DNA of 44,969 bases, taken from assembly GCA_003598085.1 (NCBI GenBank), contig QZKU01000122.1, forward strand, positions 1 through 44,969. The letters run 5' to 3'. The DNA is from Candidatus Abyssobacteria bacterium SURF_5. GTDB lineage: Bacteria; Abyssobacteria; SURF-5. This document shows positions 3,686 through 34,266 of the stretch, in pieces. The stretch's first letter is position 1. Each line of letters opens with the position of its first letter. The notes below the pieces were generated by a model. The model had not been told where the DNA came from. It made no database searches and saw only the letters and a program-made list of their open reading frames with translations. The position numbers were made by a program, and so were the translations under genes.

Positions 3686-3730
3686 TGAATAACGCATCGC
3701 TTCAGAATTTGCGAGAGAGTTGACCGCAAG

Positions 3731-6700
3731 ATGAACATCCAAGAGAATCGCTCCGGCAATCCCGAAGTGAAAGGCTGGATAAACCAGACGATCAGGTTCT
3801 GTCTGGAGAACAAGCTGATCGTTTTCCTCCTCCTCGCGTTTCTTCTGGGCTGGGGCATCTACGTCATGCCGTTCGACCGCGACTCGGATTTCTTCCCGAG
3901 CGATCCGATTCCGGTGGACGCGATCCCGGACATCGGTGAAAACCAGCAGATCGTCTTCACCGAATGGCCCGGCCGGTCGCCGCAGGACGTCGAGGACCAG
4001 GTAACGTATCCCCTCACCATTTCTCTGCAGGGCATCCCGGGCGTCAAATCGATTCGCAGCTATTCGATGTTCGGATTCTCGACGGTCTACGTGATCTTTA
4101 AGGACGGCATTGATTTCTACTGGTCGCGCTCGCGCCTGCTCGAGCGGCTGAACGTGGCCCAGCAAGACTTGCCGGAGGGAGTGATTCCGTCGCTCGGCCC
4201 CGACGCCACCGCTCTGGGCCAAATCTTCTGGTATACCGTCGAGGCCAAGGGGTTCGACCTGCAGGAGCTTCGCTCGATCCAGGACTGGTACATCCGCTAC
4301 GCGCTGCAGTCGACAGAAGGCGTCAGCGAGGTCGCCTCCATCGGCGGCTACGTCAAGGAATATCAGATCGACGTGAACCCCGACTCGATGCGCGCTCACG
4401 GTGTCATGCTCCAGGACGTTTTCTCCGCCGTCAGAAAGGCAAACATCGACGTCGGGGCCGAAACCATCGAGTTCAACGGAGTCGAATATCTCATTCGCGG
4501 AAAAGGGTTCATCAAGAACCTGACCGATATCGAAAACATCTTGCTAAAAACCAATGACGGCGTCCCCATCTACGTGAAGAACGTCGGGACCGCCGTTCTC
4601 GGGCCGGCGCTGCGCCGCGGCGTGCTCGATAAAGAGGGCGCCGAAGTTGTCGGCGGCGTGGTCATCGTTCGCTATGGCGAGAATCCGCTCGAGGTCATTG
4701 GGCGCCTCAAAGAAAAAATAAGCGAAATCCATGTGGGCCTTCCCAAAAAGACGCTCGCGGACGGCAGCGTTTCGCAGGTGCAGATCGTCCCGTTTTATGA
4801 TCGCACCGATCTCATTCATCAGACCCTCGAGACCCTGAACGACGCGCTAATCGAGGAAGTGCTCATAACGTGCTTTGTCGTCTTCATTCTTCTCGCGCAT
4901 TTCCGATCGAACATCCTGATCTCGGCGAATCTGCCGATCGCGGTGCTGACCGCCTTCATCCTGATGAGCATCTTCAAGGTGGACTCGAACCTGATGAGCC
5001 TGGGCGGCATCGCGATCGCGATCGGCACGATGGTCGACATGGGAATCATCCTCTGCGAGAACATCGTCAGACATTTTGATGAAGCGAGTCCGGACGAGGA
5101 CCCGCTCGAAGTCATCTATCTGGCGGCGAGCGAGGTCGGCAGCGCGGTCGTGACCGCAATCGCGACCACCTTGATCTCGTTCCTGCCGATATTCGCCTTG
5201 ACCGGGCCGGAAGGAAGACTGTTCAAGCCGCTGGCCTACACGAAAACCTTTGCGCTGTTCGGCTCCGTCTTCGTGGCGCTCACGGTGCTTCCGGCGTTCG
5301 CTCATATCCTGTTCACGAAAAGGCGGGTGCACGTCAACGTAAAGATGATCGCATATGGCGCGTTGGTCCTGATCGGGATCGTCGCCCTATTCTGGCTCTC
5401 GTTCTGGGCCGGCCTTCCGCTGATCCTGGCGGGCCTGTATCTCATGTTCGAGAAGCGCCTGCCGGCGCGGATTTTGAAGCGGATGCCGCAGATCATGTCC
5501 ATTCTGGCCGCACTGTTTGTGCTCGCGCTGCTGACAACGCACTGGATGCCGCTGGGTCTGGGAACGGGATTGACGCGCAATCTGATCTTCGTGTTCGGCA
5601 TCAACATAGCTTGGACTTCACTACGGGTGATCGTCATCAACTTCTACCCGAACCTGCTGGGAACATTTCTCCGGAACAAGCTGGCGTTCCTCTCGTTGCC
5701 GGCCGCGCTGGTCATTTTCGGAATAGTCGTCTGGCAGGGCTTCGGGAAAACGTTCAACTGGATTCCTGCAGGTCTGGAGAAGATCGGCCTTCCGCAGGAG
5801 AAGATCAAGGCGACCGCCCTCTGGTCGGGCGCCGTACATACGTTCCCCGGGCTGGGGCGCGAGTTCATGCCCGCGCTTGATGAAGGTTCATTCCTCTTCA
5901 TGCCGACGACGATGCCGCACGCTTCCATCGGAGAAGCGCTCGATATCCTGCAGAAACAGGACCGCGCGATTCGCGCGATTCCCGAGGTCGATATGGTCGT
6001 GGGGAAGATCGGGCGCGCTGAAACCGCAATCGATCCGGCCCCCGTCTCCATGATCGAGACCGTCATCACCTACAAACCGGAATATGGTCCGCCCGATCCC
6101 GAAACCGGCAAACGGCCGCGCCTGTGGCGGGACCATATCGAATCGACGGACGACATCTGGAATGAAATTGTCCGAGCGGCCGATGTGCCGGGCAGCACCT
6201 CAGCGCCGAAACTGCAACCGATAGCGGCGCGCATCGTGATGCTGCAATCAGGCATGCGCGCGCCAATGGGCGTCAAGGTCCGCGGGCAAACGCTCGAAGA
6301 GGTCGAGCGCGTGGGCTACGATATCGCGCGGTTCCTCAAAGAAGTCCCGAGCGTGACTCCTGAAGCGGTCATACCCGATCGCGTTGTCGGAAAGCCGTAT
6401 CTCGAGATCGACCTCGACCGCGAAAAGCTCGCGCGCTACAAGGTGAACATACGCGACGCGCAGGACGTGATAGAGATCGCCGTCGGCGGAATTCGAGCCA
6501 CGACCACGGTCGAAGGACGCGAGCGCTATCCGGTACGCGTGCGTTACCAGCGCGAGCTTCGAGATTCGTATGAGGCGCTCGAAAATATTCTGGTTTCGTC
6601 AAGTGAAAACGTGCAGATACCGCTGGCGCAACTCGCAGATATCAGTTACGTGCCCGGACCTCAGGAGATAAAGAGCGAGGACACGTTCCTGGTTTCTTAT

Positions 6701-15999: not shown

Positions 16000-16028
16000 A
16001 TTATACAGAAACGGCGCCGGTGCGTCAA
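16000..16028 (-). promoter_or_regulatory. Near-consensus sigma-70 promoter of the leuL-leuA transcript
   Basis: On the - strand: -35 TTGACG (16028-16023), 17-base spacer, -10 TATAAT (16005-16000, perfect). Only one of twelve hexamer bases departs from consensus. The start point is expected near 15993, giving a leader of about 200 bases before leuA. The -35 overlaps the stop codon of the upstream hydrolase gene. Confidence 0.75.
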
Positions 16029-16870
16029 ATCTTTTTCTCAGGATAGCCGGGGGAAGGTTTCCCGCAAGCGTTTTCATCCCTGCAAGTGAACTTTCTCAGA
16101 AATTCCAGAATTACCCTGTTGCATTCATCCGGACTCTTCAAATAGGCGCCGTGGCTGCCCTTGTATTCGTACAAGTATGAGCCGGGAATCGTGTCGCGCA
16201 TTTTCTCGGCGTACGAAAACGGGATCACCTTGTCGTCTCGGGAATGCAGAATGAGAGTCGGCGCCTTGATCTCGTGCAGCCGATGCGTGATATTGACCGC
16301 TGAAACCTCGCGCAACGTCTCGATCGCGACATGCGGCTTGCCTTTCGCCACAAGCTGCTTGTTCCACTCAGTTATCTCCGGCTGTGCTTCGTCGGCAAGT
16401 TGGCCCGAAAACATCTCGGCGAACGCAGGCATCCCCTCGCGCCGAATGAAATCAGTGACAAGATCGATGTCCATCCGGCCGACCGGCTCGCTGCGCGTCG
16501 CCCACAGGATAAGCGAATTCACCCGCTCCGGGTGCGCCAGCGCAAACAGTTGCGCAATGATTCCTCCAAATGACTGCCCCAGTATGTGGGCCTTGCGGAT
16601 TCCGATGATGTCGTACAATCCCTCGATGTCACGGATGTACTCGTCAAACCGGTACCCCCTGCGCGGCTTCGACGATTGTCCGAATCCGCGAAGGTCTGGC
16701 GCCACGACTGCGACGTCCCGCGCAAAATAGGGAATCTGCCTCACCCAGCTTTCCTTGCAGCCCATCCACCCGTGCAGCAGGATGAGATGTTGTTTTCCGC
16801 CGAGCCAGGGATCAAGAAAGTCGGCGAGAAGATAGCATATCTCGATCCCATTAACTGAGGCCGTAGGCAC
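16025..16870 (-). CDS. Alpha/beta-fold hydrolase
   Basis: Serine hydrolase of 281 residues with a GTG start. Motifs: the oxyanion HGW loop in LILLHGWMGCKESW, APDLRGFGQSSKP, the nucleophile elbow GQSFGG, the acid in LILHSRDDKVIPF and the catalytic His in KGSHGAYLKSP. Overall layout resembles proline iminopeptidases, haloperoxidases and other AB-hydrolase-1 enzymes. No signal peptide, so it acts in the cytoplasm. Substrate cannot be told. It ends where the leuA promoter begins, and a divergent ABC transporter gene starts 170 bases away on the other side. One of four alpha/beta hydrolases in the window. Confidence 0.85.
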   Translation of the reverse strand: MPTASVNGIEICYLLADFLDPWLGGKQHLILLHGWMGCKESWVRQIPYFARDVAVVAPDLRGFGQSSKPRRGYRFDEYIRDIEGLYDIIGIRKAHILGQSFGGIIAQLFALAHPERVNSLILWATRSEPVGRMDIDLVTDFIRREGMPAFAEMFSGQLADEAQPEITEWNKQLVAKGKPHVAIETLREVSAVNITHRLHEIKAPTLILHSRDDKVIPFSYAEKMRDTIPGSYLYEYKGSHGAYLKSPDECNRVILEFLRKFTCRDENACGKPSPGYPEKKI

Positions 16871-18778: not shown

Positions 18779-19603
18779 CTATTGTAACACCCTCCACCGT
18801 TTCATCTGCCTGGAACCATAGAGGTTCGGCGTCTGCGGATACTGCTGAGACGGCAGCTTCGCGCGAATTGCGTTGAACCAGTCCCCGTACGTCGCGTTTT
18901 CTTTCAGTGAGGAAAGAGCGCTCAGAGCGACAAAACTGAATGCGCCGTTGGCCCTTCCTTCAAACCAGGCGTCGTAGCTGTATTCAGTGTCCTGACAGCC
19001 CGCCAGCAAGAGAGCGGCATAGCGGCCGGGAGGACTGGAGACGCGCCGGGCTCGCCTCTTCCCCAACTTTGCAAACTCCCGCTTGGAAAGGTACGTCTCG
19101 GGCGGGAGAAAGCGAACCTTTCTTTGCGGGGCATCCTTGCTTCGGGTTGTGGGAGGTGTGCTGATGGGAGCGAATCTGGTGACCGAGCCGGAATGGCAGG
19201 AATCGGAGATCATGACCGTTTTAACCCCTCGCTGGCCCGCGCTGTAAAGCTCAAAAAGATCGTCGTCGGTGATCGGCCCATTGCTGCTGATATCGTGCGG
19301 ACAGAGGCATTCATCGGTGCCGTCCGGCTCATCGCCGTCCAGATCGGGAACGAATGAGCCATGCCCCGAATATGTGATTATCACGCTGTCACCCTTTTTC
19401 GCCGCCCGTATCAGTTCTCTGATCGAGGAACGCATCACCTCTCCGGTCGCATCCTTGTTCAGTATCCGCTGCACCGTGAAACCGCGGCCCTTCAGGACGT
19501 CCGCCCAGTCGTTGGCGTCGTTGACACAGCCGGATAAGTCGCTGCCGGTGCCCGGATAATCGTTGATCCCGATACAGAGCGCATTCTTGCTGTTCTTGAT
19601 CAT
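18779..19603 (-). CDS. Caspase-fold cysteine peptidase (metacaspase/orthocaspase-like, C14)
   Basis: A 274-residue protein from the ATG at 19603, which has AGAAGGAG upstream; the frame is open to 19687. It starts at once with the caspase core (KNALCIGINDYPGTGSDLSG), has catalytic His81 in ITYSGHGSFVPDLDGDEPDG and catalytic Cys136 in VMISDSCHSGS. These are the two residues of the C14 dyad, and acidic residues around the Cys suit Arg/Lys-directed metacaspases. There is no signal peptide and no obvious added domain, so it is a short cytoplasmic p20-type protease. The insert after the Cys (about 147-185) is Arg/Lys/Pro-rich and could be processed. A consensus promoter lies upstream with a 170-base leader. 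Role unknown; programmed death, stress or defence are possibilities. Confidence 0.85.
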   Translation of the reverse strand: MIKNSKNALCIGINDYPGTGSDLSGCVNDANDWADVLKGRGFTVQRILNKDATGEVMRSSIRELIRAAKKGDSVIITYSGHGSFVPDLDGDEPDGTDECLCPHDISSNGPITDDDLFELYSAGQRGVKTVMISDSCHSGSVTRFAPISTPPTTRSKDAPQRKVRFLPPETYLSKREFAKLGKRRARRVSSPPGRYAALLLAGCQDTEYSYDAWFEGRANGAFSFVALSALSSLKENATYGDWFNAIRAKLPSQQYPQTPNLYGSRQMKRWRVLQ

Positions 19604-19988
19604 GGCTTCTTCTCCTTCTCTTGAGCCCGCGCCAATATTTCCACTGCGCGGCATGCCCGCGCAGAACTTCCCGGAAAAGGGATCCACCGCCTTCTGCTTC
19701 TGTAATAAGCCGCCCCATCACGGCCCTTGCCCGCGGTTCCGGTTCGCGGCCTATCCTCCAGGAGCCAAAATGGTGAAAATAATATATTTCGCATTAATTA
19801 ATTTGTCAACAAAAAACTCTTAGCCGGTAAGCAATGGATTTGGAACAAGCGGAGGGAGGATGATTCCGATGCCGCCGCTGCGGTGGAGAGAGCGGCCGGG
19901 AAACTCCGAAACCTTTAAGCGGCGATTTTCTCGGAAACAGGCAGACTCGTCGACTGCGGGTTAGACCACGCGCGGCAATGCGATCGAG
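19604..19988. other. Intergenic region upstream of the caspase gene
   Basis: This 385-base gap holds the caspase promoter (19781-19809), its long 5' leader with an 8-bp hairpin CTGCGCGG (19644-19651) / CCGCGCAG (19657-19664), and, from 19810 on, the presumed 3' region of the upstream epimerase operon. No further gene is supported. Confidence 0.5.
19781..19809 (-). promoter_or_regulatory. Consensus sigma-70 promoter of the caspase gene
   Basis: On the - strand: perfect -35 TTGACA (19809-19804), exactly 17 bases of AT-rich spacer, -10 TATATT (19786-19781). The predicted start near 19774 leaves about 170 bases of untranslated leader before the ATG at 19603. Confidence 0.75.
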
Positions 19989-21122
19989 CTACCTTCCAAC
20001 ACTGAGCCGCTCAACCGCACACCTTTGCAGTGCTGTCTCGTCCAGATGCACGCCGAGTCCATAACCGCCCAACGGGGCGGCGGACCCGTTGAAGCCGAAT
20101 CCGAGTCGCGGATGCGCGATGTCGGCTTCGAGCAAGTGCCGGTTGTATGAGCCCTCGAGATGAATGAAATCGGGAACTGCGAATGCGAGATGTCTTCCGG
20201 CGGCGGCAAGAATGGAAGTCTCGCCGACAAGGCAGCCGAGCTGGAACTTGAGGCCGCGGCGGCGCGCGATCTCGATGATCTTCAGACAGCCGGTGATTCC
20301 GCCGCACTTCGCGAGCCGCACATTAAAAATATCGCATGCGCCCATGTCGGCCAACAGGTTGGCGTCGCTGATGCTGCAGAGGGATTCATCGGCCATCACC
20401 GGCACATTGCAGCGCTCGCGCACGTAGCGCATTCCTTCGATATCCTTTTGGCCGACCGGCTGCTCGACGGAAGAGATGTTGAAGCGCTGCAACTTCCTGA
20501 TCTTTGCCACCGCTTCTTCCGGTCCCCAGGCGCAGTTCGCGTCGATCCGGATATCGACCTTGGCGCCCATCACCCTCCGAATGGCTGAGAGGCGCGCCTC
20601 GTCGTCGCCCACGCCCACCTTCACCTTGAGCTGCGAGAAGCGAGCCAGCCTCAATTTAAGAGCGGCCCGTGCGGTGGACCATCTGCCATCCGCGGAGACC
20701 GGGCCGGTATAATGAATGTTTTTCTTTTTCGGTCCGCCGCGAAAATCGAGGACCGACCTCAAGAATTCTTTGCCGGCAAGATCGAAGAGCGCAAGATCGA
20801 CGGCGCAGAATGCGGCCTCGATCGAGCCTTCACCGCCCGCACGCATGAGCTCGGGGAGAAAATGCGAGACGTCCTCGAAACTGGTGAACTTCGCGCCGAC
20901 GACTTGCGGGCCGAAGGTGGTTTTGAGGGTGTCCATCACGGAAGAGAGGGTTTCGCCGGTGAGATAGGCGCGGGGAATTGTTTCGCCGGCGCCGCTCAAC
21001 GCATTATCGGAACGAATCCGCACAATGATATTTTCCGCCTCTTCGCGACCGGCTTCGGCGTGCACATATCTATGCTTGAACGGAATCCTGATCCTGTAGA
21101 TTTCGAACTGAACTATCCGCAT
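19989..21122 (-). CDS. Enolase-superfamily epimerase (dipeptide epimerase-like)
   Basis: A 377-residue member of the mandelate racemase/muconate lactonising group, most like L-Ala-D/L-Glu-type dipeptide epimerases. The catalytic lysine pair is in LKVKVG (Lys166 and Lys168), the metal ligands are Asp194 (DANCAW), Glu220 (VEQP) and Asp245 (ADES), and the opposing base is Lys272 (RLAKCGG). The late GCLVGETS motif also fits. Expected reaction: abstraction of an alpha proton next to a carboxylate, giving epimerisation of an amino-acid unit or a cycloisomerisation. The start overlaps the acyltransferase gene by 53 bases, so it is the last gene of a tightly packed six-gene operon. In this context it may act on an amino-acyl intermediate rather than on cell-wall dipeptides. 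Confidence 0.87.
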   Translation of the reverse strand: MRIVQFEIYRIRIPFKHRYVHAEAGREEAENIIVRIRSDNALSGAGETIPRAYLTGETLSSVMDTLKTTFGPQVVGAKFTSFEDVSHFLPELMRAGGEGSIEAAFCAVDLALFDLAGKEFLRSVLDFRGGPKKKNIHYTGPVSADGRWSTARAALKLRLARFSQLKVKVGVGDDEARLSAIRRVMGAKVDIRIDANCAWGPEEAVAKIRKLQRFNISSVEQPVGQKDIEGMRYVRERCNVPVMADESLCSISDANLLADMGACDIFNVRLAKCGGITGCLKIIEIARRRGLKFQLGCLVGETSILAAAGRHLAFAVPDFIHLEGSYNRHLLEADIAHPRLGFGFNGSAAPLGGYGLGVHLDETALQRCAVERLSVGR

Positions 21123-21975
21123 CCTTCCAGATCCTGTAAAAGACGCCGTACTGCGTCGGGTCGCGCCGAATGTATTGTTCCAGGCGCTCGATGTATCGCT
21201 TCATCAGGAAGCGCAGGGACTCGTCGGTATCGGGCAGCCCCTCCGTTTCGATCGGTTCGTCAAAGACAAACGTGAAACGATTATCCGGAAACCGGATGAT
21301 GTATGCCGGCACCACCGGCGCCTGCGCGCGAAGAGCAAACTTGGCCGGCCCCTTCGGAAAAGTTGTGGTGCGCCCGAAGAACTGCACGTCAATTCCGCCC
21401 TTCGTTGTGACGCGATCCCCCAGCACGCAGAGGATGCCGTTCTCGCGGAGAACCTGATAGCCTCCGTCGATTGCATTCGATGTGAAAATGATGCCGACAC
21501 CCGCTTCAAGGCGCGGTTTCACAAACAGATCGTTCACTTTCTTGTTTTTGTGCGGCGCGATGATGCCGTAGGCCGGATATCCGCACATTGCAAAATAAGC
21601 CAGTCCCAACTCCCAATTGCTGTAATGAGCGGAGACGACGACGACTCCCTTCCCTTTCTTCAGGCTGTCATCGATATTCTTCATGCCCTCGGTGCGGATA
21701 TGAGAATCGAGGTACCGCCTGTCGAGCTTGGGCATGCGGAAAAACTCAGCGAGATACAGGCTGAAATGATAATAAGTTTGCTTGATCGCCTCGTCCAGCG
21801 CCCTGCCTTCCAGATCGGGCCGGATAACGCGAAGATTCGCCCGCACCGACTCCCTGCCGCGCCGGTCGAAAAAACGGTGAATATCGGCGAGTCTCCGCGC
21901 GATCCAGTAAAGCTGGTTCAACGGGAAGACCGTCGCCAGGAAAACCGCTCCGAGGTATACCAGATACTCAATCAT
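21070..21975 (-). CDS. LpxL/HtrB-type lysophospholipid acyltransferase
   Basis: A 301-residue membrane-associated acyltransferase. The start at 21975 is chosen because it gives a hydrophobic N-terminus (IEYLVYLGAVFLATVF) and overlaps the upstream hydrolase gene by only eight bases; the frame is open further upstream. The HX4E catalytic motif is His117-Tyr-Ser-Asn-Trp-Glu122, followed by family blocks FFGRTTTFPKGPAKFALRA and PVVPAYIIRF. Enzymes of this family add a fatty acyl chain to lipid A, or in specialised clusters to other lipids. Lipid A maturation is the default reading. The surrounding GH3, methyltransferase and epimerase genes make a specialised lipid product equally possible. Confidence 0.87.
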   Translation of the reverse strand: MIEYLVYLGAVFLATVFPLNQLYWIARRLADIHRFFDRRGRESVRANLRVIRPDLEGRALDEAIKQTYYHFSLYLAEFFRMPKLDRRYLDSHIRTEGMKNIDDSLKKGKGVVVVSAHYSNWELGLAYFAMCGYPAYGIIAPHKNKKVNDLFVKPRLEAGVGIIFTSNAIDGGYQVLRENGILCVLGDRVTTKGGIDVQFFGRTTTFPKGPAKFALRAQAPVVPAYIIRFPDNRFTFVFDEPIETEGLPDTDESLRFLMKRYIERLEQYIRRDPTQYGVFYRIWKDADSSVRNLQDQDSVQA

Positions 21976-22807
21976 CTGTCTGTCGAACCTCCCCGATCCA
22001 CTCCACGATATCCCGCGCCACCTCGCCTGGCCTTTCGAACTGCACGGAATGGTTGCACCCCTTGTATAATAGGATTCTTTTGTGCTCCATCTCCAGCGAA
22101 TCGAATATCGTTTGCAGCTTCTCGTTATCGATGATCCGATCGTGCTCGGCAAGGAGCACCTGCGTCGGGGTCTTCCACTGGTAGTTGCGCTTCCTCAGGA
22201 GGCGATCGATCTTGAAGCTCTCGCGATAAAAGGAAGCCGTTACCCGGCGCAGCCGCAGCGGATCGTTCGCGATATAGGCGAGGCGCTCGGGCATCGACGT
22301 GAACATCGCGTCCTTGATGGGGATCGGGTGCAATGCGCGCGGGCGAAAGAGCGCATCAAAAGCGATTCGCGCTTTTTCGCCGGGAGCGGGCGCAACCCGC
22401 GGAAAAATGCCGGGCGCGATAAGTGTCAGAGAAGCAAAAAGGGCGGGATATGCGGAAGCGACGGCGGCCGCAAGCTTGCCGCCCCACGAGAGGCCGGCGC
22501 AATGCAACCGGTCGTGTCGGCCGGATATGCCGCAGGCGAAGTCGAGCACATCGAGCAGCAGCCGCCTGTAACTGCTGCAATGGCCGCGTTCCATGCTATT
22601 CATACCCGAGCCGCGCCTATCGAGCGCATACACGCCGATCCCCATACCGCTGATATGACGGGCGCACTCGGCGAACCATTCGGAATGGCTCTCGATGCCA
22701 TGCAGATAAATGAGCGCATCCGTTTGGGAGTCCGCCGGCCAACAACGATATTTCAGCGAACAGCCATCCTGTGTCCTGTATTCGCCCACGGTTGCCGACA
22801 TGCTCAT
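21968..22807 (-). CDS. Alpha/beta hydrolase (serine aminopeptidase S33 / monoacylglycerol-lipase-like)
   Basis: Hydrolase of 279 residues from the ATG at 22807; a TTG at 22852 would add 15 residues, and no start has a strong ribosome site. Motifs: LIYLHGIESHSEWF, YALDRRGSGMN, nucleophile elbow GLSWGG, the acid in LLAEHDRIID and the late His in YKGCNHSVQFERP. This pattern is that of the S33/MGL-like group acting on lipid esters or thioesters. It overlaps the acyltransferase gene by eight bases and follows the DUF362 gene closely, so its substrate is probably an intermediate of the same pathway. Confidence 0.85.
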   Translation of the reverse strand: MSMSATVGEYRTQDGCSLKYRCWPADSQTDALIYLHGIESHSEWFAECARHISGMGIGVYALDRRGSGMNSMERGHCSSYRRLLLDVLDFACGISGRHDRLHCAGLSWGGKLAAAVASAYPALFASLTLIAPGIFPRVAPAPGEKARIAFDALFRPRALHPIPIKDAMFTSMPERLAYIANDPLRLRRVTASFYRESFKIDRLLRKRNYQWKTPTQVLLAEHDRIIDNEKLQTIFDSLEMEHKRILLYKGCNHSVQFERPGEVARDIVEWIGEVRQTDD

Positions 22808-22856
22808 CACGCTCAAGGGAAGGAGCCGGACATGATCCGGCGAAGAACGCAACCAC

Positions 22857-23954
22857 TTAATACTTGAATCGCCCGCGATACCGCTTGACTTTGTTGGTGA
22901 CGTCCAGCGCGCTATTCGGGCAGAGCTCCATACAGCAGAAGCACGAGATGCACCGCTCCGGGTTGACGGTCGGATACGGCTTCAATTGAATCGCTCCCAC
23001 CGGGCAATGCTGCTCGCAAATTCCGCACTTGCTGCATTTATCTTCTATCGGCACCGGTCGGCTGGTCATCAGATGCGTGAGCAGGTGCCACAGGATGAAG
23101 CCGACCGGACCCCTCATCATCTTTGACGGCAATTTGAAATTTTCAATTTGCGCGATCGGCCCGACCGTCTTGATCGAACCGAGGGAAATCCGCCCGAGCC
23201 CGCGTTCTTGCGCCAATTGCAGCATCGGAACGCGAACAGGGTCCATGCCCATCATCACCGCCATCACGGCATCCAGCTCGACCCCGTTATCACTCACGAT
23301 GATTTTGCCGATTTCCCGCAAGTCCTCGGAGGAAGGCCCCTTCCCTTCCATCCCGATGACGGCGTCCATCACCACCAGGTCGGGCGCGCGAAGCTGATAG
23401 ATATCCACGAGCGCTTCGGAAAAGGTTTCGCACGACTGAGCAAGGCGGTGAATCGCCGTCTTCTGCCCGCCCACCAGCATCCCGAAGCTGTTCTTGATCG
23501 CGCCGGTTATATGGGTGAGCATGTGCGTCTTGAATTTTGGAATCGAGATGTAGAAATCGGTTTCGAGGAATGTGCGCGAAATAGTCACCTTGTCGGTGAA
23601 CCGCGACTTCATCGGCGCCGAGACGCCTTCTTCGCTGAGGTTGACGTAATAATCGGAGCACACATCGAGGAGGCCGCTTCTCTGCGCGCTCGTTTTATTC
23701 AATCCATACCCGCGCACGCCGGGATTGTCGCCAACGACAATCCGCGCCGGCCGCCGGGCCGCGACCGCCTTGACCACGCCGGCGACCACCGAGGGATGTG
23801 TTGTTATCGCACGGCTGACCCCGAACGGTCCGATGACGTTCGGCTTGATGACAACATTCTTGTTTTCGAGGTTCACTCCAAAGTCGGAAAAAGCCTTCTC
23901 AATAACCTCCGCCGCACTCGAATAGTCGGCGTCATACACCGCCACTGTCCCCAT
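22857..23954 (-). CDS. DUF362 protein with a C-terminal 2[4Fe-4S] ferredoxin domain
   Basis: About 365 residues. ATG at 23954 is preferred because AAGGGG lies six bases upstream; a GTG at 23960 is also in frame. The N-terminal two thirds is a DUF362 domain (NKNVVIKPNVIG... is typical; also PKFKTHMLTHITGAIKN). The C-terminal 65 residues form a bacterial ferredoxin with two clusters, CSKCGICEQHCP and CISCFCCMELCP. DUF362 iron-sulfur proteins are frequent but mostly uncharacterised; a redox role in biosynthesis is the usual guess. The gene starts 10 bases after the methyltransferase stop, inside the six-gene operon, implying a reductive or electron-transfer step in that pathway. Confidence 0.87.
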   Translation of the reverse strand: MGTVAVYDADYSSAAEVIEKAFSDFGVNLENKNVVIKPNVIGPFGVSRAITTHPSVVAGVVKAVAARRPARIVVGDNPGVRGYGLNKTSAQRSGLLDVCSDYYVNLSEEGVSAPMKSRFTDKVTISRTFLETDFYISIPKFKTHMLTHITGAIKNSFGMLVGGQKTAIHRLAQSCETFSEALVDIYQLRAPDLVVMDAVIGMEGKGPSSEDLREIGKIIVSDNGVELDAVMAVMMGMDPVRVPMLQLAQERGLGRISLGSIKTVGPIAQIENFKLPSKMMRGPVGFILWHLLTHLMTSRPVPIEDKCSKCGICEQHCPVGAIQLKPYPTVNPERCISCFCCMELCPNSALDVTNKVKRYRGRFKY

Positions 23955-23963
23955 ACGCACCCC

Positions 23964-25013
23964 TTATCTCAATACAAAATATGCGTGCCCGATCCCGTGC
24001 ACGAGCTTCTTATCTACGATTCCATACCCGCTCTTTTGAAAGAGGTCAATCCATTGACCGATGGGAAGGATCTCCTGCTTCGTGAGCGAGTGGAAAAGAT
24101 GATGCTCCAGTGTGGTGGTTGGAATCCTCCTCAGCCACACGCGCGGCAGTTTGAAGAATTCAGCCACCACCAACGCGGATTGAGGAAAATTTCTCTTGTA
24201 CTCCCCGAGAAGCTTGATCACCGGCTGAACCCCTCCATAAACGTATTCATGGAGAACATCGATTGCGGTGATTGCGTCGATATCGGGAAACAGTTCCGCA
24301 AGATGCTCGACGTCGAACATATCAGCCCGCGAGACGGTCACGCGGCCGCTGCAGGACGCGCCGTCCTCAAGCCGCCGGCGCGCGCATTCGATTGCCGCAG
24401 GATCACTATCGACGCCCGCTGCGGTTATCCCGGCCCTCTCGCAGAGGAGGAAGACAAACTCGAGGTCGCCGCACCCGAGATCGAGGACGCGGCGAAACCC
24501 GTGATCGTACACCATCTGGCGCATCGCGAGGAAAGGGAACTGCCGCCCTAATTCGCCACTGCCTTTGGCGACCGCGTCGCCGCGACGGATAACGTCGCGC
24601 CCGTACTTTTCCTGCGAGCGCGCGAGCGCTTCAAGTTTCGTGAAAACCGGCTCGTATCCATAGAGAAGATCAAACAGTCCTCGTGGCTCCTCGAGCAGAA
24701 TTTTGCCATTCACGTCCAGCATGCAGCGGTCGTTCTCGCAGTCGAGGACCTTGATGCCGTCGAGATATTCGCAGATCGATCTGAGCGTCTCGAGGTCCAG
24801 CTTGTTTGCCTGCGCAAATTCCTTCAAATCGACCGCGCCCTTTTCCAGCAGGTTATCGAGCAAACCAACATTCGAGAGCGTCCAGAAACAGGTGGTGGCG
24901 GCATATCCCCTGATAAGTTTCAACCCGAGAGCATGCTTCTTTCTCAGCCGCAAGAGACGGCCGATTCCTCCGATTTTATGCATGAAGCGGATTTGCTCGA
25001 GTATCGGATTCAT
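23964..25013 (-). CDS. SAM-dependent class I methyltransferase
   Basis: A 349-residue two-domain methyltransferase. The N-terminal part is helical with a winged-helix-like layout (TTCFWTLSNVGLLDNLLEKG) as in dimeric O-methyltransferases of natural-product pathways. The Rossmann domain has motif I VLDLGCGDLEFVF, the acidic motif II VDSDPAAIECARRR and AITAIDVLHEYVYGG as post-motif. Typical substrates of this group are hydroxyl or carboxyl groups on small molecules. Eleven bases separate it from the GH3 gene upstream. The product is probably a methylated lipid or small molecule; no direct evidence for the substrate. Confidence 0.87.
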   Translation of the reverse strand: MNPILEQIRFMHKIGGIGRLLRLRKKHALGLKLIRGYAATTCFWTLSNVGLLDNLLEKGAVDLKEFAQANKLDLETLRSICEYLDGIKVLDCENDRCMLDVNGKILLEEPRGLFDLLYGYEPVFTKLEALARSQEKYGRDVIRRGDAVAKGSGELGRQFPFLAMRQMVYDHGFRRVLDLGCGDLEFVFLLCERAGITAAGVDSDPAAIECARRRLEDGASCSGRVTVSRADMFDVEHLAELFPDIDAITAIDVLHEYVYGGVQPVIKLLGEYKRNFPQSALVVAEFFKLPRVWLRRIPTTTLEHHLFHSLTKQEILPIGQWIDLFQKSGYGIVDKKLVHGIGHAYFVLR

Positions 25014-25024
25014 TCCCGCCCTCT

Positions 25025-26698
25025 TTACAGCGCCTGCCCGCCTGATTTGATTTCAGATACGATTCGGAGTTTGAGGTTTTCACTATTATACATGAGCCGG
25101 GCGATTTTATACTGGCCGTCCGGCGCCCCGCTTTCGACCCGCCGTTTTCGGCACTGCTCGAAGCAGCCGTTTTCAACGATGCATAGAGATGGATGACCCA
25201 GCCGCTGAGAATCACGCTTGCCGGCGTATTCGATATTCTGCAGCCGCAGCTCGCGCTCAAAACGATCAAGCAGATTCCGGAGCAGTCGCTCGTTTCGTTC
25301 CGGCGTCTCGACCAGCAGTACGTACGCCGGCGGCTCGCTGAGCCGGAGTGTCAACACGAAATCGTCTATTGGAACGGCAAGCGCCGCGGCGCCCCGGCCA
25401 ACCGCCTCCGTCACCTGGGTTTCCGTGAGCTTCTCCCCAGTTATCGATACCGTGTTCCCCCCCTTGCGTTGAAACACGATGACCGGGGTCCTGTTGAACC
25501 GGTCGACCACTTTGACGATATCCTGAATATCATATCGGTACAGCCCGCCCGACGTCGTGATCACCAGATAGTATTCTCGCCCGATCTCCACCTCTTCGGG
25601 CCCCAGCGGTTTCCCACGGCGGCCGCCGTCCTCTCCAACCTCGAAGAATTCGAAAAAATGACCCGTTATCGCAAGCAGCCCCCTCGGCGTGTTCGACCAC
25701 AGCGGAATCGAGCAGTATGCTTCCGTTGCTATCAATCCCATATCGCGAAGGGGAACCTCGGGGAAATATTCTGACAGCCGGCTGATGTAAAAACCGGCCG
25801 AGCCGCCCTGCCATGTCGTGATGACTTCAAGCTCTCCCCACAGATCGCTCCCCTTGAGCAGCGCATCCTTGCGCCTGAGCGCCTCGAGTTCGCGCGCTCG
25901 CCGCCTGTTGGGACGGAGCGCATACTCGATATGGCTCCGCAGCCGCCGCGGGATGTCGATATCCTGCCGGAGAGAACCATCGGCGATATCTCGAATGAGT
26001 TCGTCGGCGTGAAGATTGACCTTCTTCATCAGGAGCACAATGGTGCTCGGATTGAGCGCCGCGATAGCAGTCACGTTCCGCTCGAGCGCGAGCCGCAGGA
26101 CAAGATAATACTTTGCCTCGAAGTCCTTCAAGCACATCACTTCGTACGGCACCGCGTACATTTGCTGGGTCAGGGGATACTGCAACTGGTAGCTGTGGCC
26201 GCTCATCGCTCCGTACGGAATCCCGCACTCGGTGTACCCTTCGATTTCGGCGCTCATCACGGAGAGAATCTTGCCGCGCGCCATGCGGCGGTGGTCGGCC
26301 AGGAGTTTGCGTTGCCACATCTTTTGCGTCTTCGAGAATTCTTCGTAGAAGGAGGGGGTTATCGGGATGAATTTGGGATCGCTCGTCGTGCCGCTCGTAC
26401 GGCCGAACATTTCCGGTTCTTCCTTGGTGAGCACCTGCCGTTCGCCGCATTGAAGGCGCTCGATGTATGGCTCGAATTCCTCGTATGGCCGCACGGGCAC
26501 GAGCTCCCGAAAATCGGCGAGCGAGCGAATGATCGAGAAGGAATGTTCCCGTCCGAAGGCTGTATCCCGGTTTCGAGAGAGGATGTCCATCAGTCGGTTC
26601 GCCTGCATGCGGGCGGGCTGGTGCGTGGCGTCCATCAGCTCGTTCCACGAGCGGCTGAGAACGGTTCTGAGATAGAGGAAGAGCAGGTGGTCGATCAT
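25025..26698 (-). CDS. GH3-family acyl-amido synthetase-like enzyme
   Basis: A 557-residue protein of the GH3 auxin-responsive-promoter family, whose plant members adenylate a carboxylic acid and join it to an amino acid. The nucleotide-binding motif GRTSGTTSDPKFIPIT lies at 99-114. Family blocks follow: YGAMSGHSY, NPSTIVLLMKKVNLH, WQGGSAGFYIS, EAYCSIPLW, GREYYLVITTSGGLYRYDIQDIVKVV (split as GREYYLVITTSGG and LYRYDIQDIVKVV), and the C-terminal GAPDGQYKIARLM with the lysine needed for adenylation. Length is normal. It heads a run of six close genes, so an amide- or ester-forming ligation is probably the entry step of that pathway. The start lies only 18 bases beyond the terminator of the upstream radical SAM gene, and its ribosome site is weak. 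Confidence 0.85.
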   Translation of the reverse strand: MIDHLLFLYLRTVLSRSWNELMDATHQPARMQANRLMDILSRNRDTAFGREHSFSIIRSLADFRELVPVRPYEEFEPYIERLQCGERQVLTKEEPEMFGRTSGTTSDPKFIPITPSFYEEFSKTQKMWQRKLLADHRRMARGKILSVMSAEIEGYTECGIPYGAMSGHSYQLQYPLTQQMYAVPYEVMCLKDFEAKYYLVLRLALERNVTAIAALNPSTIVLLMKKVNLHADELIRDIADGSLRQDIDIPRRLRSHIEYALRPNRRRARELEALRRKDALLKGSDLWGELEVITTWQGGSAGFYISRLSEYFPEVPLRDMGLIATEAYCSIPLWSNTPRGLLAITGHFFEFFEVGEDGGRRGKPLGPEEVEIGREYYLVITTSGGLYRYDIQDIVKVVDRFNRTPVIVFQRKGGNTVSITGEKLTETQVTEAVGRGAAALAVPIDDFVLTLRLSEPPAYVLLVETPERNERLLRNLLDRFERELRLQNIEYAGKRDSQRLGHPSLCIVENGCFEQCRKRRVESGAPDGQYKIARLMYNSENLKLRIVSEIKSGGQAL

Positions 26699-26825: not shown

Positions 26826-28196
26826 TCAGGCCGAATGCACGACCTTCTGCCGGGCGGCATCAAGGCGTTCAAGCTCGTCCTGATACGCCCGGCAATTGCG
26901 CACCAATGTGTCGTGTAACTCCGTCACGATACGTTCGCCGCCTTCATGCGTCGGAGTCAGGTGATACTTCTCGTACAGAAGCTGCAGCTTCTCCGGATTG
27001 TCGATTATGCAGCACGGGCGGCGATGATCCTCGTTGAACGGCTGCATGGAGCGGGCTTCCTTGAAGCACGGCGAGTTCAGAATCTCCACGAGCGAATGAT
27101 CGCGGATGTTATGGGTAGCCATGTGAATGAAGACACACGGCTCGACCATCCCGCTCGGGGTGACATGCAGGTACTTTCGCCCCCACGCCAGGCATCCTTC
27201 GGTGGCCTCGCCGTCATTCCAGAAATCGTAGACCACAATGGGTCTGGTCCTGCGAAATTTTTCGACGGCCTCAAATCGCTCCAGCCGCTGCCGCGCCGTG
27301 GGAATCAGAGCGGGGTCGGGATTGCGGCCGGTCGGCAGGTATTGAAAATACCAGCCGAAGGCCGGACCGTGCCGGACCAGTTCGTCGATGAATTCTTCAT
27401 TTATGATGGCATGATGGTTCTTCGTGGTGTGCGTCACGGAGAACCCGAACAGTACGCCTTCCCGTTTCAGCCTGTCCATCGCCGCAAGAATACGGGCATA
27501 GGCGTTTTTGCCGCGCCGGTCGTCGGTCTCGCGAGGGCCGCCTTCAATGCTGATGGCGGGATGCACGTTTCCGAGCCGCGCCATTTTCTTTGCCATAGCG
27601 TCATCGATCATCATTCCATGCGTGTAGACCTGGAAGAAAACGTCGTTGTGTTCCTCGGCGATATCAAACAGGTGAGGCCAGATTGTCGGTTCGCCCCCGG
27701 ATATGGTGATGAAATAAACGCCCAGTTCCTCTTTCGCTTCCCTGATAATCCGGCTGACTTCTTCGCGGCTCAGCTCCTGTGTCTTATCATATTCGGCGGC
27801 GTAACAGCCGAAACATTTGAGGTTGCATTTCATGCTGGGGCTGATTACCAGGAGGAACGGCGGGGGCTCTCCGTAAGTAGCGGTATATTGATCGCGGACC
27901 TCCTGCCCCAAGGTGAGATGGTTGAAAAACATGTTAAAGGCCAGCCTGCGCTGCGTCTGCGACGAGAGCCTCGGCAAGTTCCGCTTGACCATCTCGAAGA
28001 ACATGTCCATGCTCTCGCCGGCGATCTGCTGCTTTTCCGGATCCTGATTTTTCCTGACCGCGAGCGCTTTCGCCTTTGCCCTGTTCCTCAGGGTATCGAT
28101 GAGGGTTTCCAAGACTTTCCCGTTTCCCGTGACTGCCGGAAGAAGATAGGAAAGGCCTTTCGCCTTCATGTAAGCCATGGTCCGGTCCACATTCAT
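26826..28196 (-). CDS. Radical SAM protein with SPASM-like C-terminus
   Basis: Radical SAM enzyme of 456 residues. ATG at 28196 is chosen because AGGAGGG lies nine bases upstream; the frame opens at 28220. A helical N-terminal region (1-110) is followed by the cluster motif CNLKCFGC (Cys124, Cys128, Cys131), then radical SAM strands such as VYFITISGGEPTIWP and HPAISIEGGPRETDDRRG. A Cys-rich C-terminus (EGCLAWGRKYLHVTPSG, PCVFIH, RPCCIID) looks like a SPASM-type auxiliary cluster region. The long N-terminal helical domain is shared with uncharacterised radical SAM proteins. Substrate unknown. A strong terminator follows, so it forms the end of the transcript that includes the two upstream - strand genes. 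Confidence 0.87.
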   Translation of the reverse strand: MNVDRTMAYMKAKGLSYLLPAVTGNGKVLETLIDTLRNRAKAKALAVRKNQDPEKQQIAGESMDMFFEMVKRNLPRLSSQTQRRLAFNMFFNHLTLGQEVRDQYTATYGEPPPFLLVISPSMKCNLKCFGCYAAEYDKTQELSREEVSRIIREAKEELGVYFITISGGEPTIWPHLFDIAEEHNDVFFQVYTHGMMIDDAMAKKMARLGNVHPAISIEGGPRETDDRRGKNAYARILAAMDRLKREGVLFGFSVTHTTKNHHAIINEEFIDELVRHGPAFGWYFQYLPTGRNPDPALIPTARQRLERFEAVEKFRRTRPIVVYDFWNDGEATEGCLAWGRKYLHVTPSGMVEPCVFIHMATHNIRDHSLVEILNSPCFKEARSMQPFNEDHRRPCCIIDNPEKLQLLYEKYHLTPTHEGGERIVTELHDTLVRNCRAYQDELERLDAARQKVVHSA

Positions 28197-28224
28197 TACG
28201 TTCGCCCTCCTGTTTCTCATGTAA

Positions 28225-28294: not shown

Positions 28295-29251
28295 TCAACT
28301 CCGGCCGCTCACAGCGCCGCGTGCCGGGGGGGTACGTAACTGCGCCGCCGCTCTTTGCTGCAGCGCGCGGCTTATCATCTGCACGTCCGACGGCTCACTC
28401 AAATCCGTGGCGAGATCGGCATCGTCCCACAGAATCGCCTTCGCGGTCACTTCATATTTTTCGAGGACGTGCCGCTCGAGGTCCTGAATCGAAAGTGAGC
28501 CAAAAACGTACTTCAACGTCAGCTTGACGCCGAGAAATCGCGCTGCGCCGAGCGTGCTCTTGCGCATGTAGTACAAATTGTACAGATTGTCTTTCTGTGC
28601 CCGCACCTCGTCGGGATTGTCCAGAAACAGGTCCGGTCGCAGGAACTCCACATGCGCGCCCGTAAACTGGCCCTCCCGAAAATGCCCATACGTGCGAGCC
28701 TCCTCCGGGTATTGCCGCTCGCATTGCTGTCGACTCACGAGAGGAAAGACGAGATCGACCGATCTTTCATCCAGGACGCGATCGATCAACTCGTCCAAAC
28801 CTTCCGACGTCACCAGGGCAAGGTCGGATGGAATGAACATCACCAGGTCGCCCTTTTCGACTTCACCTACGCCGAACTGAAGGTTCGCGGCCGCGTCTCC
28901 CCGATCCTCAATAAAGGACGTTCCCGGATCATCTGTCAGCTTCAAGCGTCTCTCAACCTCCGGAGCCGCAAAGACGACTATTTTGTCAACGTGCCTCGAA
29001 CTGCGAAGCGCGTCGTAGACGTGCTCGATCATCGGCTTGCCATTGACTTCCAGCAAGTCCAGGTTCGGGACGTCCCGGAAATGTTTTTTGGCATCCTCGG
29101 TTTGCCAGACCGAAAACAGTATGGCAACCACACGTCCATCAGGACGTCCTGTGTCTTCAGAAGCGGGAAGAGAAGCCATGCTGCTTATGCCTGCGGCAGA
29201 AAGCGAAAGAAAAATCAGGACGGCGACAACGCCTTTCATTTTCACGTTCAT
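28295..29251 (-). CDS. Exported nucleotidyltransferase-fold protein lacking the usual G-rich loop
   Basis: A 318-residue protein that reads as a MobA/NTP-transferase fold: LLEVNGKPMIEHVYDALRSS, IVVFAAPEV, ANLQFGVGEVEKGDLVMFIPSDLALVTSEGLDELI (split as ANLQFGVGEVEKG and MFIPSDLALVTSEGLD). Two things are odd. The N-terminus (KGVVAVLIFLSLSAAGISSM) is a convincing signal peptide, although such enzymes need cytoplasmic NTP. And where the family has the nucleotide-binding GGxGxRM loop, this protein has VVAILFSVWQTEDAKKHFRD. It may be a periplasmic pseudoenzyme or an anchored variant. It lies between a hydrolase and a radical SAM gene on the same strand. Confident as a gene, moderate as to fold, function unknown. 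Confidence 0.75.
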   Translation of the reverse strand: MNVKMKGVVAVLIFLSLSAAGISSMASLPASEDTGRPDGRVVAILFSVWQTEDAKKHFRDVPNLDLLEVNGKPMIEHVYDALRSSRHVDKIVVFAAPEVERRLKLTDDPGTSFIEDRGDAAANLQFGVGEVEKGDLVMFIPSDLALVTSEGLDELIDRVLDERSVDLVFPLVSRQQCERQYPEEARTYGHFREGQFTGAHVEFLRPDLFLDNPDEVRAQKDNLYNLYYMRKSTLGAARFLGVKLTLKYVFGSLSIQDLERHVLEKYEVTAKAILWDDADLATDLSEPSDVQMISRALQQRAAAQLRTPPARGAVSGRS

Positions 29252-29314: not shown

Positions 29315-30166
29315 CTAGAGGAGCTTTCCGGAGACATCGGCCCGGGGAACGCTCATAAATTTCCTGATCTCCTGAAACACCTGAGGCTGGTCGTCATCCA
29401 GGATGACGTTGTGTCCGCTCCTCTCGAGCATCACCAACCGTTTCTGATCCGAGCCGATCTGTCGGAACGCGAGCGGGCCGCTCTTTGCTCCGGATATTCT
29501 GTCGCACTTCGATTGGATCAGCAATGTGGGCGCGGTGACACGGTCGAGCCGATGCTTGACGATCCGTATTAATTCGGACATGGTATGCAGGATTGCCGTC
29601 GGAACACGCTCATAGACAAAATAGAATGGTTCGCCGTCTGCCCCTGTAATCGCCTCGGGATTCCCCTTGACCTGCTTGAAAAACGCCCAGTAAATCCGCA
29701 ACATCAGGTCCGTCGGAAACCTGTCGTTGAGCGGACAGAGCGGAAGGCTCAACAGGATCAGCCGATCCACTGGATTGTGCGCCGCATAATGTGCCGACAG
29801 CGCCGCCCCAATCGAGAATCCGGCAAGACTTACTTCCTGATGGCGTTTCCGCAACTCGCAAAACTCGTCATGAACGGCTTCGTACCAGTCCTGCCATACG
29901 ACCCCTTCGAGGTCATCCGGGTGGGTGCCATGCCCCGGCAACAACATCGCTCGTGCGGTAAAGCCTAATTGGTCAAGAAACTCGGCAAGTTTTCTCATCT
30001 GGGCGGGAGAGCCGGCGATTCCATGCACGAGCAGGAACGCCCGTTCGCCTTTCCCAAGCGTATAGGGAGAATGTCCTCTGGCTACAGTTCGCGATCTCTG
30101 CCAGAAGGTTGAAATCTTTTTATTGAAGGGGACGTCATTTGTAAATTCGGACGCCGACAAGACCAT
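29315..30166 (-). CDS. Alpha/beta hydrolase, Est30-like carboxylesterase family
   Basis: A 283-residue cytoplasmic serine hydrolase. Motifs: AFLLVHGIAGSPAQMRKLAE, LLPGHGTHPDDLEGV, nucleophile elbow GFSIGA, the acid in LIQSKCDRISG and the catalytic His in LERSGHNVILDDD, as in thermostable carboxylesterase Est30 and monoglyceride lipases. A paralogue with the same motif order lies at 33478-34266. It begins the - strand block of genes. A perfect -10 TATAAT lies at 30278-30273 on this strand, about 107 bases upstream, without a good -35. Likely substrates are short-chain or monoacyl esters. Confidence 0.85.
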   Translation of the reverse strand: MVLSASEFTNDVPFNKKISTFWQRSRTVARGHSPYTLGKGERAFLLVHGIAGSPAQMRKLAEFLDQLGFTARAMLLPGHGTHPDDLEGVVWQDWYEAVHDEFCELRKRHQEVSLAGFSIGAALSAHYAAHNPVDRLILLSLPLCPLNDRFPTDLMLRIYWAFFKQVKGNPEAITGADGEPFYFVYERVPTAILHTMSELIRIVKHRLDRVTAPTLLIQSKCDRISGAKSGPLAFRQIGSDQKRLVMLERSGHNVILDDDQPQVFQEIRKFMSVPRADVSGKLL

Positions 30167-33477: not shown

Positions 33478-34266
33478 ATGCCACCACCGGAAACGATGCT
33501 TATGGAAAATGCCCCGCCGGCTCCTGCATTCTCTTTCAAAAGAGGAACTGTGGGATGCCTCCTGGTGCATGGATTCGGAGATACGGCCGCCTTAATGGAG
33601 CCGATGGCGGTTTATTTGAGAGAACAGGGGATAACCACGACCTCTGTGACGCTGCCCGGTCATGGGACGTCTCTTCACGATTTCGCCTTGATCTCCTCCC
33701 AGAAGTTGATCGGGACGGTTGAACGGGAATTTGCGGAAATGAAGGAGGCCTGCGGCTCGGTTGTAGTGGTCGGCTTCAGCATGGGCGGACTGCTCGCGAT
33801 TCATCTGGCGACCCTGCGCGATGTCGAAGGGTTGGTGACGATTTGCACGCCTGTTTTTCCCCGAGGAGGAGTGCTGAGTGAGCACGTGCTGCAACGTGCG
33901 GCCAGATTTGGAGCGCTCGTCGGCGCCAATATTCCCAAGTTCGGCATAACCAGCTTGTCGGACAAAACGCTTCGCTCGTACCTGAACGGGTACAACAAAT
34001 ATCCTTCCCGCAGCATATTGTGCCTGCTCGACCTTATGAAATTGACGCGCCCGATCCTCAAGAGGGTGACAGCCCCGCTCCTGGTCGTGCATTCCCAGCG
34101 AGACGACGTCATTTGGAGAGAGAGCGGCAATTATATCTTCCGTTCCGTCGCAAGCGCTGAAAAAAGGTATATCGTATTGGAGAACAGCCGCCACAAAGCG
34201 CCGCTTGACCGGGATCGCTGCGTTCTATTTGAAGAAGTGACGAACTTCTGCTTGTCGCGCGCCTGA
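33478..34266 (+). CDS. Alpha/beta hydrolase, Est30-like carboxylesterase family
   Basis: A 262-residue serine hydrolase with a good GGAGG site five bases before the ATG. Motifs: GCLLVHGFGDTAALMEPMA, LPGHGTSLHDFA, nucleophile elbow GFSMGG, the acid in LVVHSQRDDVIW and the His in LENSRHKAPLDRD. The order and wording match the esterase at 29315-30166, so the two are paralogues. Expected substrates are short-chain or monoacyl esters. Here the gene follows the small membrane protein and precedes the hybrid kinase, which has its own promoter. Confidence 0.87.
   Translation: MPPPETMLMENAPPAPAFSFKRGTVGCLLVHGFGDTAALMEPMAVYLREQGITTTSVTLPGHGTSLHDFALISSQKLIGTVEREFAEMKEACGSVVVVGFSMGGLLAIHLATLRDVEGLVTICTPVFPRGGVLSEHVLQRAARFGALVGANIPKFGITSLSDKTLRSYLNGYNKYPSRSILCLLDLMKLTRPILKRVTAPLLVVHSQRDDVIWRESGNYIFRSVASAEKRYIVLENSRHKAPLDRDRCVLFEEVTNFCLSRA

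Follow-up and report, generated by a model that had tools for sequence, protein, structure and literature searches.

Singulisphaera acidiphila makes ornithine lipid by a GH3-dependent pathway, described in 2025: the GH3 protein OlsH of this planctomycete converts free fatty acid to N-acyl ornithine, to which the alpha/beta-hydrolase OlsI adds the second chain by O-acylation (PMC12493201). The present analysis concerns a six-gene operon of the deep-subsurface organism Candidatus Abyssobacteria bacterium SURF_5 that can be compared with this pathway. The genes lie tightly packed on the minus strand at nt 19989–26698 of the window, that is, the whole stretch of 44,969 nucleotides analysed here, which is part of a 5.1 Mb draft genome. 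They encode a GH3 ligase, a methyltransferase, a DUF362-ferredoxin, an alpha/beta-hydrolase, an LpxL-type acyltransferase and an enolase-superfamily epimerase. Thousands of bacterial GH3 proteins exist, and to our knowledge OlsH is the only one with a described role; GH3 enzymes of plants form conjugates of hormones and benzoates.

As in the OlsH/OlsI pathway, a GH3 ligase, an alpha/beta-hydrolase and a methyltransferase stand together in one operon (PMC12493201). The chemistry may also be alike in outline: OlsH and OlsI are known to N-acylate an amino acid in an ATP-dependent step and then to O-acylate the product, and the same is predicted here. Unlike that pathway, the window operon adds a racemase, an LpxL-type acyltransferase, a DUF362-ferredoxin and a radical S-adenosylmethionine (SAM) gene, its methyltransferase is of the keto-acid C-methyl type, and the OlsH and OlsI family models fail on its proteins. 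Judged from these sequences the operon is not a member of the OlsH/OlsI pathway, though it resembles it. We somewhat favour the reading that the operon directs GH3-dependent synthesis of a membrane amino lipid, in which a racemase dedicated to N-acyl amino acids and a second acylation of LpxL type take part.

The operon and its conservation

The genes of the block are as follows.

25025–26698, minus strand: GH3-family acyl-amido ligase of 557 residues (Pfam GH3, GH3_M and GH3_C), predicted to join a fatty acid and an amino acid in an ATP-dependent reaction
23964–25013, minus strand: SAM methyltransferase of the MppJ/MrsA/SgvM alpha-keto-acid C-methyltransferase type (full-length matches, both metal-binding His)
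22857–23960, minus strand: DUF362 protein with a C-terminal 2[4Fe-4S] ferredoxin (Pfam DUF362, 161.6 bits; Fer4), predicted to carry out a redox step
21968–22852, minus strand: alpha/beta-hydrolase of the monoglyceride-lipase/lysophospholipase type (Hydrolase_4, 134 bits), candidate O-acyltransferase or lipase
21070–21975, minus strand: LpxL/HtrB-type acyltransferase (Lip_A_acyltrans, 152 bits), predicted to add a secondary acyl chain
19989–21122, minus strand: enolase-superfamily racemase/epimerase of the muconate-lactonizing-enzyme (MLE) subgroup (MR_MLE_C, 167 bits), predicted N-acyl amino acid racemase
26826–28220, minus strand: radical SAM/SPASM protein directly upstream of the six genes (Pfam Radical_SAM and SPASM), a conserved part of the block
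28295–29251, minus strand: MobA-like nucleotidyltransferase, probably in the block (NTP_transf_3, 40.9 bits; conserved in L009)

The first-pass annotation of this DNA had described six closely packed minus-strand genes of these families, with short gaps and overlaps of 8 and 53 bases. The open reading frames agree, and Pfam assigns family matches above cut-off to all six proteins. The measured junctions are 11 nt between GH3 and methyltransferase, 3 nt between methyltransferase and DUF362, 4 nt between DUF362 and hydrolase, and then overlaps of 8 nt (hydrolase and acyltransferase) and 53 nt (acyltransferase and epimerase). The hydrolase probably starts at nt 22807 or 22801, because the relatives align from there; with the conserved ATG at 22807 the gap before it becomes 49 nt. 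A longer acyltransferase frame from a TTG at nt 22152 was rejected, and the start is placed at the ATG at 21975, since the alignment of the relatives begins only at about that Met. A scan for promoters and terminators gave sites no more numerous than in shuffled sequences.

Conservation was examined in three genomes of the phylum, the window genome and two Ca. Abyssubacteria relatives (L009 and L010). The six genes are not scattered: their order is intact in all three genomes, with 58–76% amino acid identity in the two relatives, and the acyltransferase and epimerase genes overlap by 53, 50 and 50 nt. The radical SAM gene, which the first-pass annotation had proposed as a contributor, also stands immediately upstream of the set in L009 (75% identical), and at the edge of the L010 contig its C-terminal end occupies the corresponding position. 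The nucleotidyltransferase gene is in place in L009 (62% identical); the L010 contig ends before it. On the other side, the DNA past the epimerase in L009 and L010 has no match to the window, the sole exception being a distant acyl-CoA-ligase family match in L010 to another place in the window. The conserved order and the stop of homology at the epimerase therefore indicate a real unit with the epimerase as its downstream edge. Sequence conservation beyond chance supports the function of the set as one unit, to which, by its retained position, the radical SAM gene belongs and the nucleotidyltransferase gene probably belongs.

Several neighbouring genes were also observed. A Peptidase_C14 caspase-domain protein is encoded on the same strand at nt 18779–19687, 301 nt downstream of the operon, and is not kept in the relatives. 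Three further alpha/beta-hydrolase genes surround the operon, at nt 16025–16870, 29315–30166 and 33478–34266. The second of them lies 63 nt before the nucleotidyltransferase gene, the point at which the contigs of the relatives end.

Enzymes of the operon

The window GH3 protein aligns over its full length with plant GH3 structures (JAR1, E=1e-56). The nucleotide motifs TSGTT..PKFIP and GGLYRYDIQD are present and their columns conserved, so that the protein has the GH3 fold and the conserved nucleotide-binding motifs, as OlsH does. It scores 100.9 bits against the cut-off of 620 of the OlsH equivalog model (NCBIfam NF052613), and nine other GH3 homologues also fall below that cut-off, at 34–123 bits. 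The hydrolase reaches 23.1 bits, at its C-terminal end only, against 385 for the OlsI model (NF052614). With both models missed by far, ornithine is not implied as the head group. An OlsB-type N-acyltransferase route was rejected, since the searches found a PF13444 (OlsB-family) protein in none of the three phylum genomes, while two control genomes matched. GH3 would therefore be the route of the phylum to N-acyl amino acids.

The epimerase carries all the catalytic residues of the MLE subgroup: KxK, D, E, D and K. Its structure model (predicted local distance difference test score, pLDDT, 87) is nearest in fold to the dipeptide epimerase 3jva and the N-succinyl-Arg/Lys racemase 2p88; the structure alignment with 2p88 gives a TM-score of 0.90 at 28% identity. 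What sets it apart is a site at strand 8, where a DxD motif is, as we take it, the mark of a dipeptide epimerase. In place of DxD the window protein has the signature VGET with EGSY. In the clade this becomes VGE[TS] with EG[SAGC][FY] and a one-residue insertion, and of the linked or clade members, all 26 with an alignment extending to the site have EG[SAGC][FY]. DxD was found in no aligned epimerase linked to a GH3 or LpxL-family gene; the same site reads DLD, the motif of dipeptide epimerases, in an unlinked homologue (L117) and ELT in 2p88. The dipeptide-epimerase equivalogs are missed as well, with 126.4 against 500 bits for NF041118 and 94.7 against 343 bits for NF011708.

In N-succinylamino acid racemases the alpha proton is removed and returned by two Lys residues, and the substrates bear an amide carbonyl (PMC8142540). 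The fold, the Lys/Lys acid-base pair and the metal ligands of such N-acyl/N-succinylamino acid racemases are all found in the window epimerase. It differs from them in its own VGE[TS] and EG[SAGC][FY] signatures, its one-residue insertion and its linkage to lipid genes. An N-acyl amino acid, as predicted for the GH3 product, has the amide carbonyl and thus fits this type of substrate. By its sequence the epimerase falls into a subfamily of its own that is tied to GH3, and an N-acyl amino acid is a more likely substrate for it than a murein dipeptide.

It could be argued instead that the substrate is a dipeptide or peptide head group, or that the enzyme catalyses another enolase-superfamily reaction such as elimination or cycloisomerisation, so that the GH3 product is not simply racemised. 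The window epimerase shares the subgroup, catalytic residues and fold of dipeptide epimerases and is almost as close to them in fold and sequence as to the racemases, and a GH3 homologue in L057 is fused to a RimK-type ATP-grasp ligase that could add residues. The absence of DxD from every GH3- or LpxL-linked member, its presence in the unlinked L117 and the low equivalog scores make this explanation unlikely. The window epimerase is not linked to murein genes.

The acyltransferase has the HX4E motif and the Lip_A_acyltrans domain, as in LpxL. LpxL enzymes put a secondary chain on a hydroxyacyl chain of lipid A, and an acyloxyacyl amino lipid would require a bond of this type. The window protein shares Pfam family and motif with the LpxL/HtrB lipid A acyltransferases. 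Unlike them it is a paralogue, coupled to the epimerase gene by the overlap of 50–53 nt, and it scores below the cut-off of the NCBIfam lipid A models. Each of the three phylum genomes has another, higher-scoring LpxL-family gene elsewhere, so the operon copy would be free for another job.

The solved structures nearest to the hydrolase are monoglyceride lipases, and its Ser-Asp-His triad is retained in homologues from GH3 clusters of other phyla. The nucleophile is changed from Ser to Cys in a hydrolase-epimerase fusion (L111:3430-5475) and in one of two tandem hydrolases (L077:6956-7801).

The methyltransferase was first annotated as an O-methyltransferase type, which did not hold. It matches over its full length the structures of 2-ketoarginine methyltransferase and MppJ, both alpha-keto-acid C-methyltransferases. 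In SgvM the zinc ligands are H244 and H296 (PMC10502145). The metal-binding His residues of the window protein, in the LHEY and LFHSLT columns, are conserved, also in the L078 homologue. The two-domain architecture and both His residues are thus shared with MppJ, MrsA and SgvM, whereas identity is low and the score (85.3 against 425 bits) is below the cut-off of the MrsA family equivalog TIGR04543. The protein is predicted to be of the metal-dependent alpha-keto-acid C-methyltransferase type, closest to MppJ and MrsA.

The DUF362-ferredoxin is 72–76% identical in the two phylum relatives, with all ferredoxin Cys residues retained. DUF362 belongs to the same Pfam clan as lactate racemase (PMC11770544). 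An AlphaFold model of the protein, built with three sequences, had a pLDDT of 36 and was not used. Among solved structures, the radical SAM protein has only general radical SAM/SPASM relatives.

Linkage of GH3 and epimerase genes in other phyla

A sample of 386 genomes spread over the domain was searched with the GH3 and epimerase alignments. GH3 was found in 30 genomes, in 19 of them as a close homologue (E < 1e-50), and the epimerase in 15 (E < 1e-60), ten of which are among the 19. The hypergeometric probability of this co-occurrence is 1.4e-11, or 5e-7 after removal of the window's own phylum and a duplicate genus; the test counts related genomes as independent, and the probability serves as a guide only. 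On the GH3 tree the presence of a neighbouring epimerase changes state at least 8 times; the linkage is therefore not merely one inherited block.

Four arrangements were seen. In the first, the epimerase adjoins GH3 (L011–L013, L051, L077, L087, L088). Three unrelated genomes have a fusion, directly before GH3, in which the epimerase follows a Haem_oxygenas_2 (haem-oxygenase-like iron enzyme) domain (L011:431-2344, L012:8088-9956, L013:5790-7688). In L051 a RidA-domain protein (2925-4076) stands beside the epimerase and GH3; its likeness to chorismatase is by eye only, Pfam giving just a RidA-type domain.

In the second arrangement (L047, L048, L053, L054, L078–L085), which consists of large gene clusters of the type-II fatty-acid-synthase kind, two ketosynthase (KS) genes stand with FabZ, FabG, acyl carrier protein (ACP), methyltransferase, GH3, LolA-like DUF1571, epimerase and hydrolase genes, or subsets of these. 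The cluster L048:2521-15871, of about 14 genes, holds two KS, two FabZ, FabG, ACP, a phosphopantetheinyl transferase, a methyltransferase, DUF1571 proteins, GH3, epimerase and hydrolase. A homologue of the window methyltransferase is in the GH3 cluster of L078. In L048, L053 and L078 one KS is without the active-site Cys and is chain-length-factor-like. No enoyl reductase is among the matched genes of the L048 cluster, and the acid may therefore be a polyene.

In the third arrangement a fatty-acid hydroxylase is fused to a close homologue of the window GH3, with the epimerase gene adjoining (L049:9111-11681); in L087 and L088 the FA_hydroxylase, GH3 and epimerase genes stand in a row. In the fourth, an LpxL-family gene directly precedes the epimerase, with coupled ends and no close GH3 (L113, L115, L116, L118). 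The L111 genome encodes hydrolase and epimerase as one protein and has its GH3 on another short contig. The RimK-type ligase fused to a GH3 domain is at L057:9004-11562.

The second arrangement bears on another explanation, that the product is no structural membrane lipid but an acyl amide that diffuses or resembles a pigment, in which GH3 has joined, for instance, a polyene or aryl acid to an amino acid. The KS-KS clusters linked to GH3 in other phyla, with two dehydratases, a ketoreductase, an ACP, no matched enoyl reductase and a KS lacking its Cys, would suit such a product, as would the hormones and benzoates conjugated by plant GH3 enzymes. A dedicated KS pair was rejected for the window phylum, whose KS matches are only FabF-like and single further KS genes. 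The LpxL-type acyltransferase, the fatty-acid hydroxylase fusion and the lipase-like hydrolase indicate ordinary fatty chains, and a diffusible or pigment-like product is accordingly improbable. Literature searches found no link of GH3 with a racemase in lipid synthesis, and no pathway for DUF1571 or DUF362.

A possible pathway to an amino lipid

Gene content and order, their conservation, the catalytic motifs, the fusions and the linkage are direct observations; from them we infer every reaction, the substrates and the product of the favoured amino-lipid pathway. GH3 would activate a free fatty acid, probably a hydroxylated one, at the expense of ATP and link it as an amide to an amino acid through the latter's amino group. 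The Lys/Lys pair of the epimerase would take the alpha proton off the N-acyl amino acid and return it on the opposite face, which yields the D or a mixed form. The LpxL-type acyltransferase would attach another fatty chain at the hydroxyl group of the first one, in the manner of LpxL and lipid A. The hydrolase may supply or trim acyl chains, or share in the O-acylation as OlsI does, and the methyltransferase and DUF362-ferredoxin may modify the head group, either as the amino acid or as its keto-acid precursor.

Several points weigh against this pathway. The operon proteins fall far short of the OlsH and OlsI family models. The enolase-superfamily residues alone cannot separate racemisation from elimination or cycloisomerisation. 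The DUF362-ferredoxin and the radical SAM gene are left unexplained. Close GH3 genes lack a nearby epimerase in L044–L046, L050 and L052, and some epimerase genes are in genomes without GH3.

A set of ordinary genes for lipid A, murein and housekeeping that merely shares one transcript is very improbable and was rejected: the acyltransferase and epimerase families are chiefly known for lipid A and the recycling of murein, but each phylum genome has a second LpxL-family gene, the GH3-tied epimerase lacks DxD, the order is conserved while the flanks diverge, and fusions and linkage recur in unrelated phyla. The first-pass annotation had named this alternative, and a scattering of the genes in relatives, as findings that would count against its proposal, and neither holds. 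Its view of one unit, with a contribution of the radical SAM gene, holds, and an acyl-amide product of lipid type is the best reading of the acylated amino-acyl or lipid product that it suggested, the lipid itself being a prediction. Its methyltransferase type had to be revised; so did its statement that it knew of no described pathway with this set, as OlsH and OlsI share part of the logic (PMC12493201).

Through conserved order and gene fusions, the window locus and its relatives connect bacterial GH3 proteins with lipid enzymes and with a new subfamily of racemases, and they supply concrete substrates to test for bacterial GH3. Tentatively, and with less confidence than for the operon itself, GH3 and a dedicated enolase-superfamily N-acyl amino acid racemase might make a family of lipids, widespread among bacteria and undescribed, in which the amino-acid head group is D-configured (racemised). 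The enzymes for the second chain and for tailoring (LpxL-type acyltransferase, hydrolase, fatty-acid hydroxylase, or a dedicated fatty-acid synthase with a LolA-like carrier) would then be interchangeable across phyla. If this is true, a membrane lipid with a racemised or D-amino acid would be a new lipid class and a possible marker for uncultured subsurface lineages.

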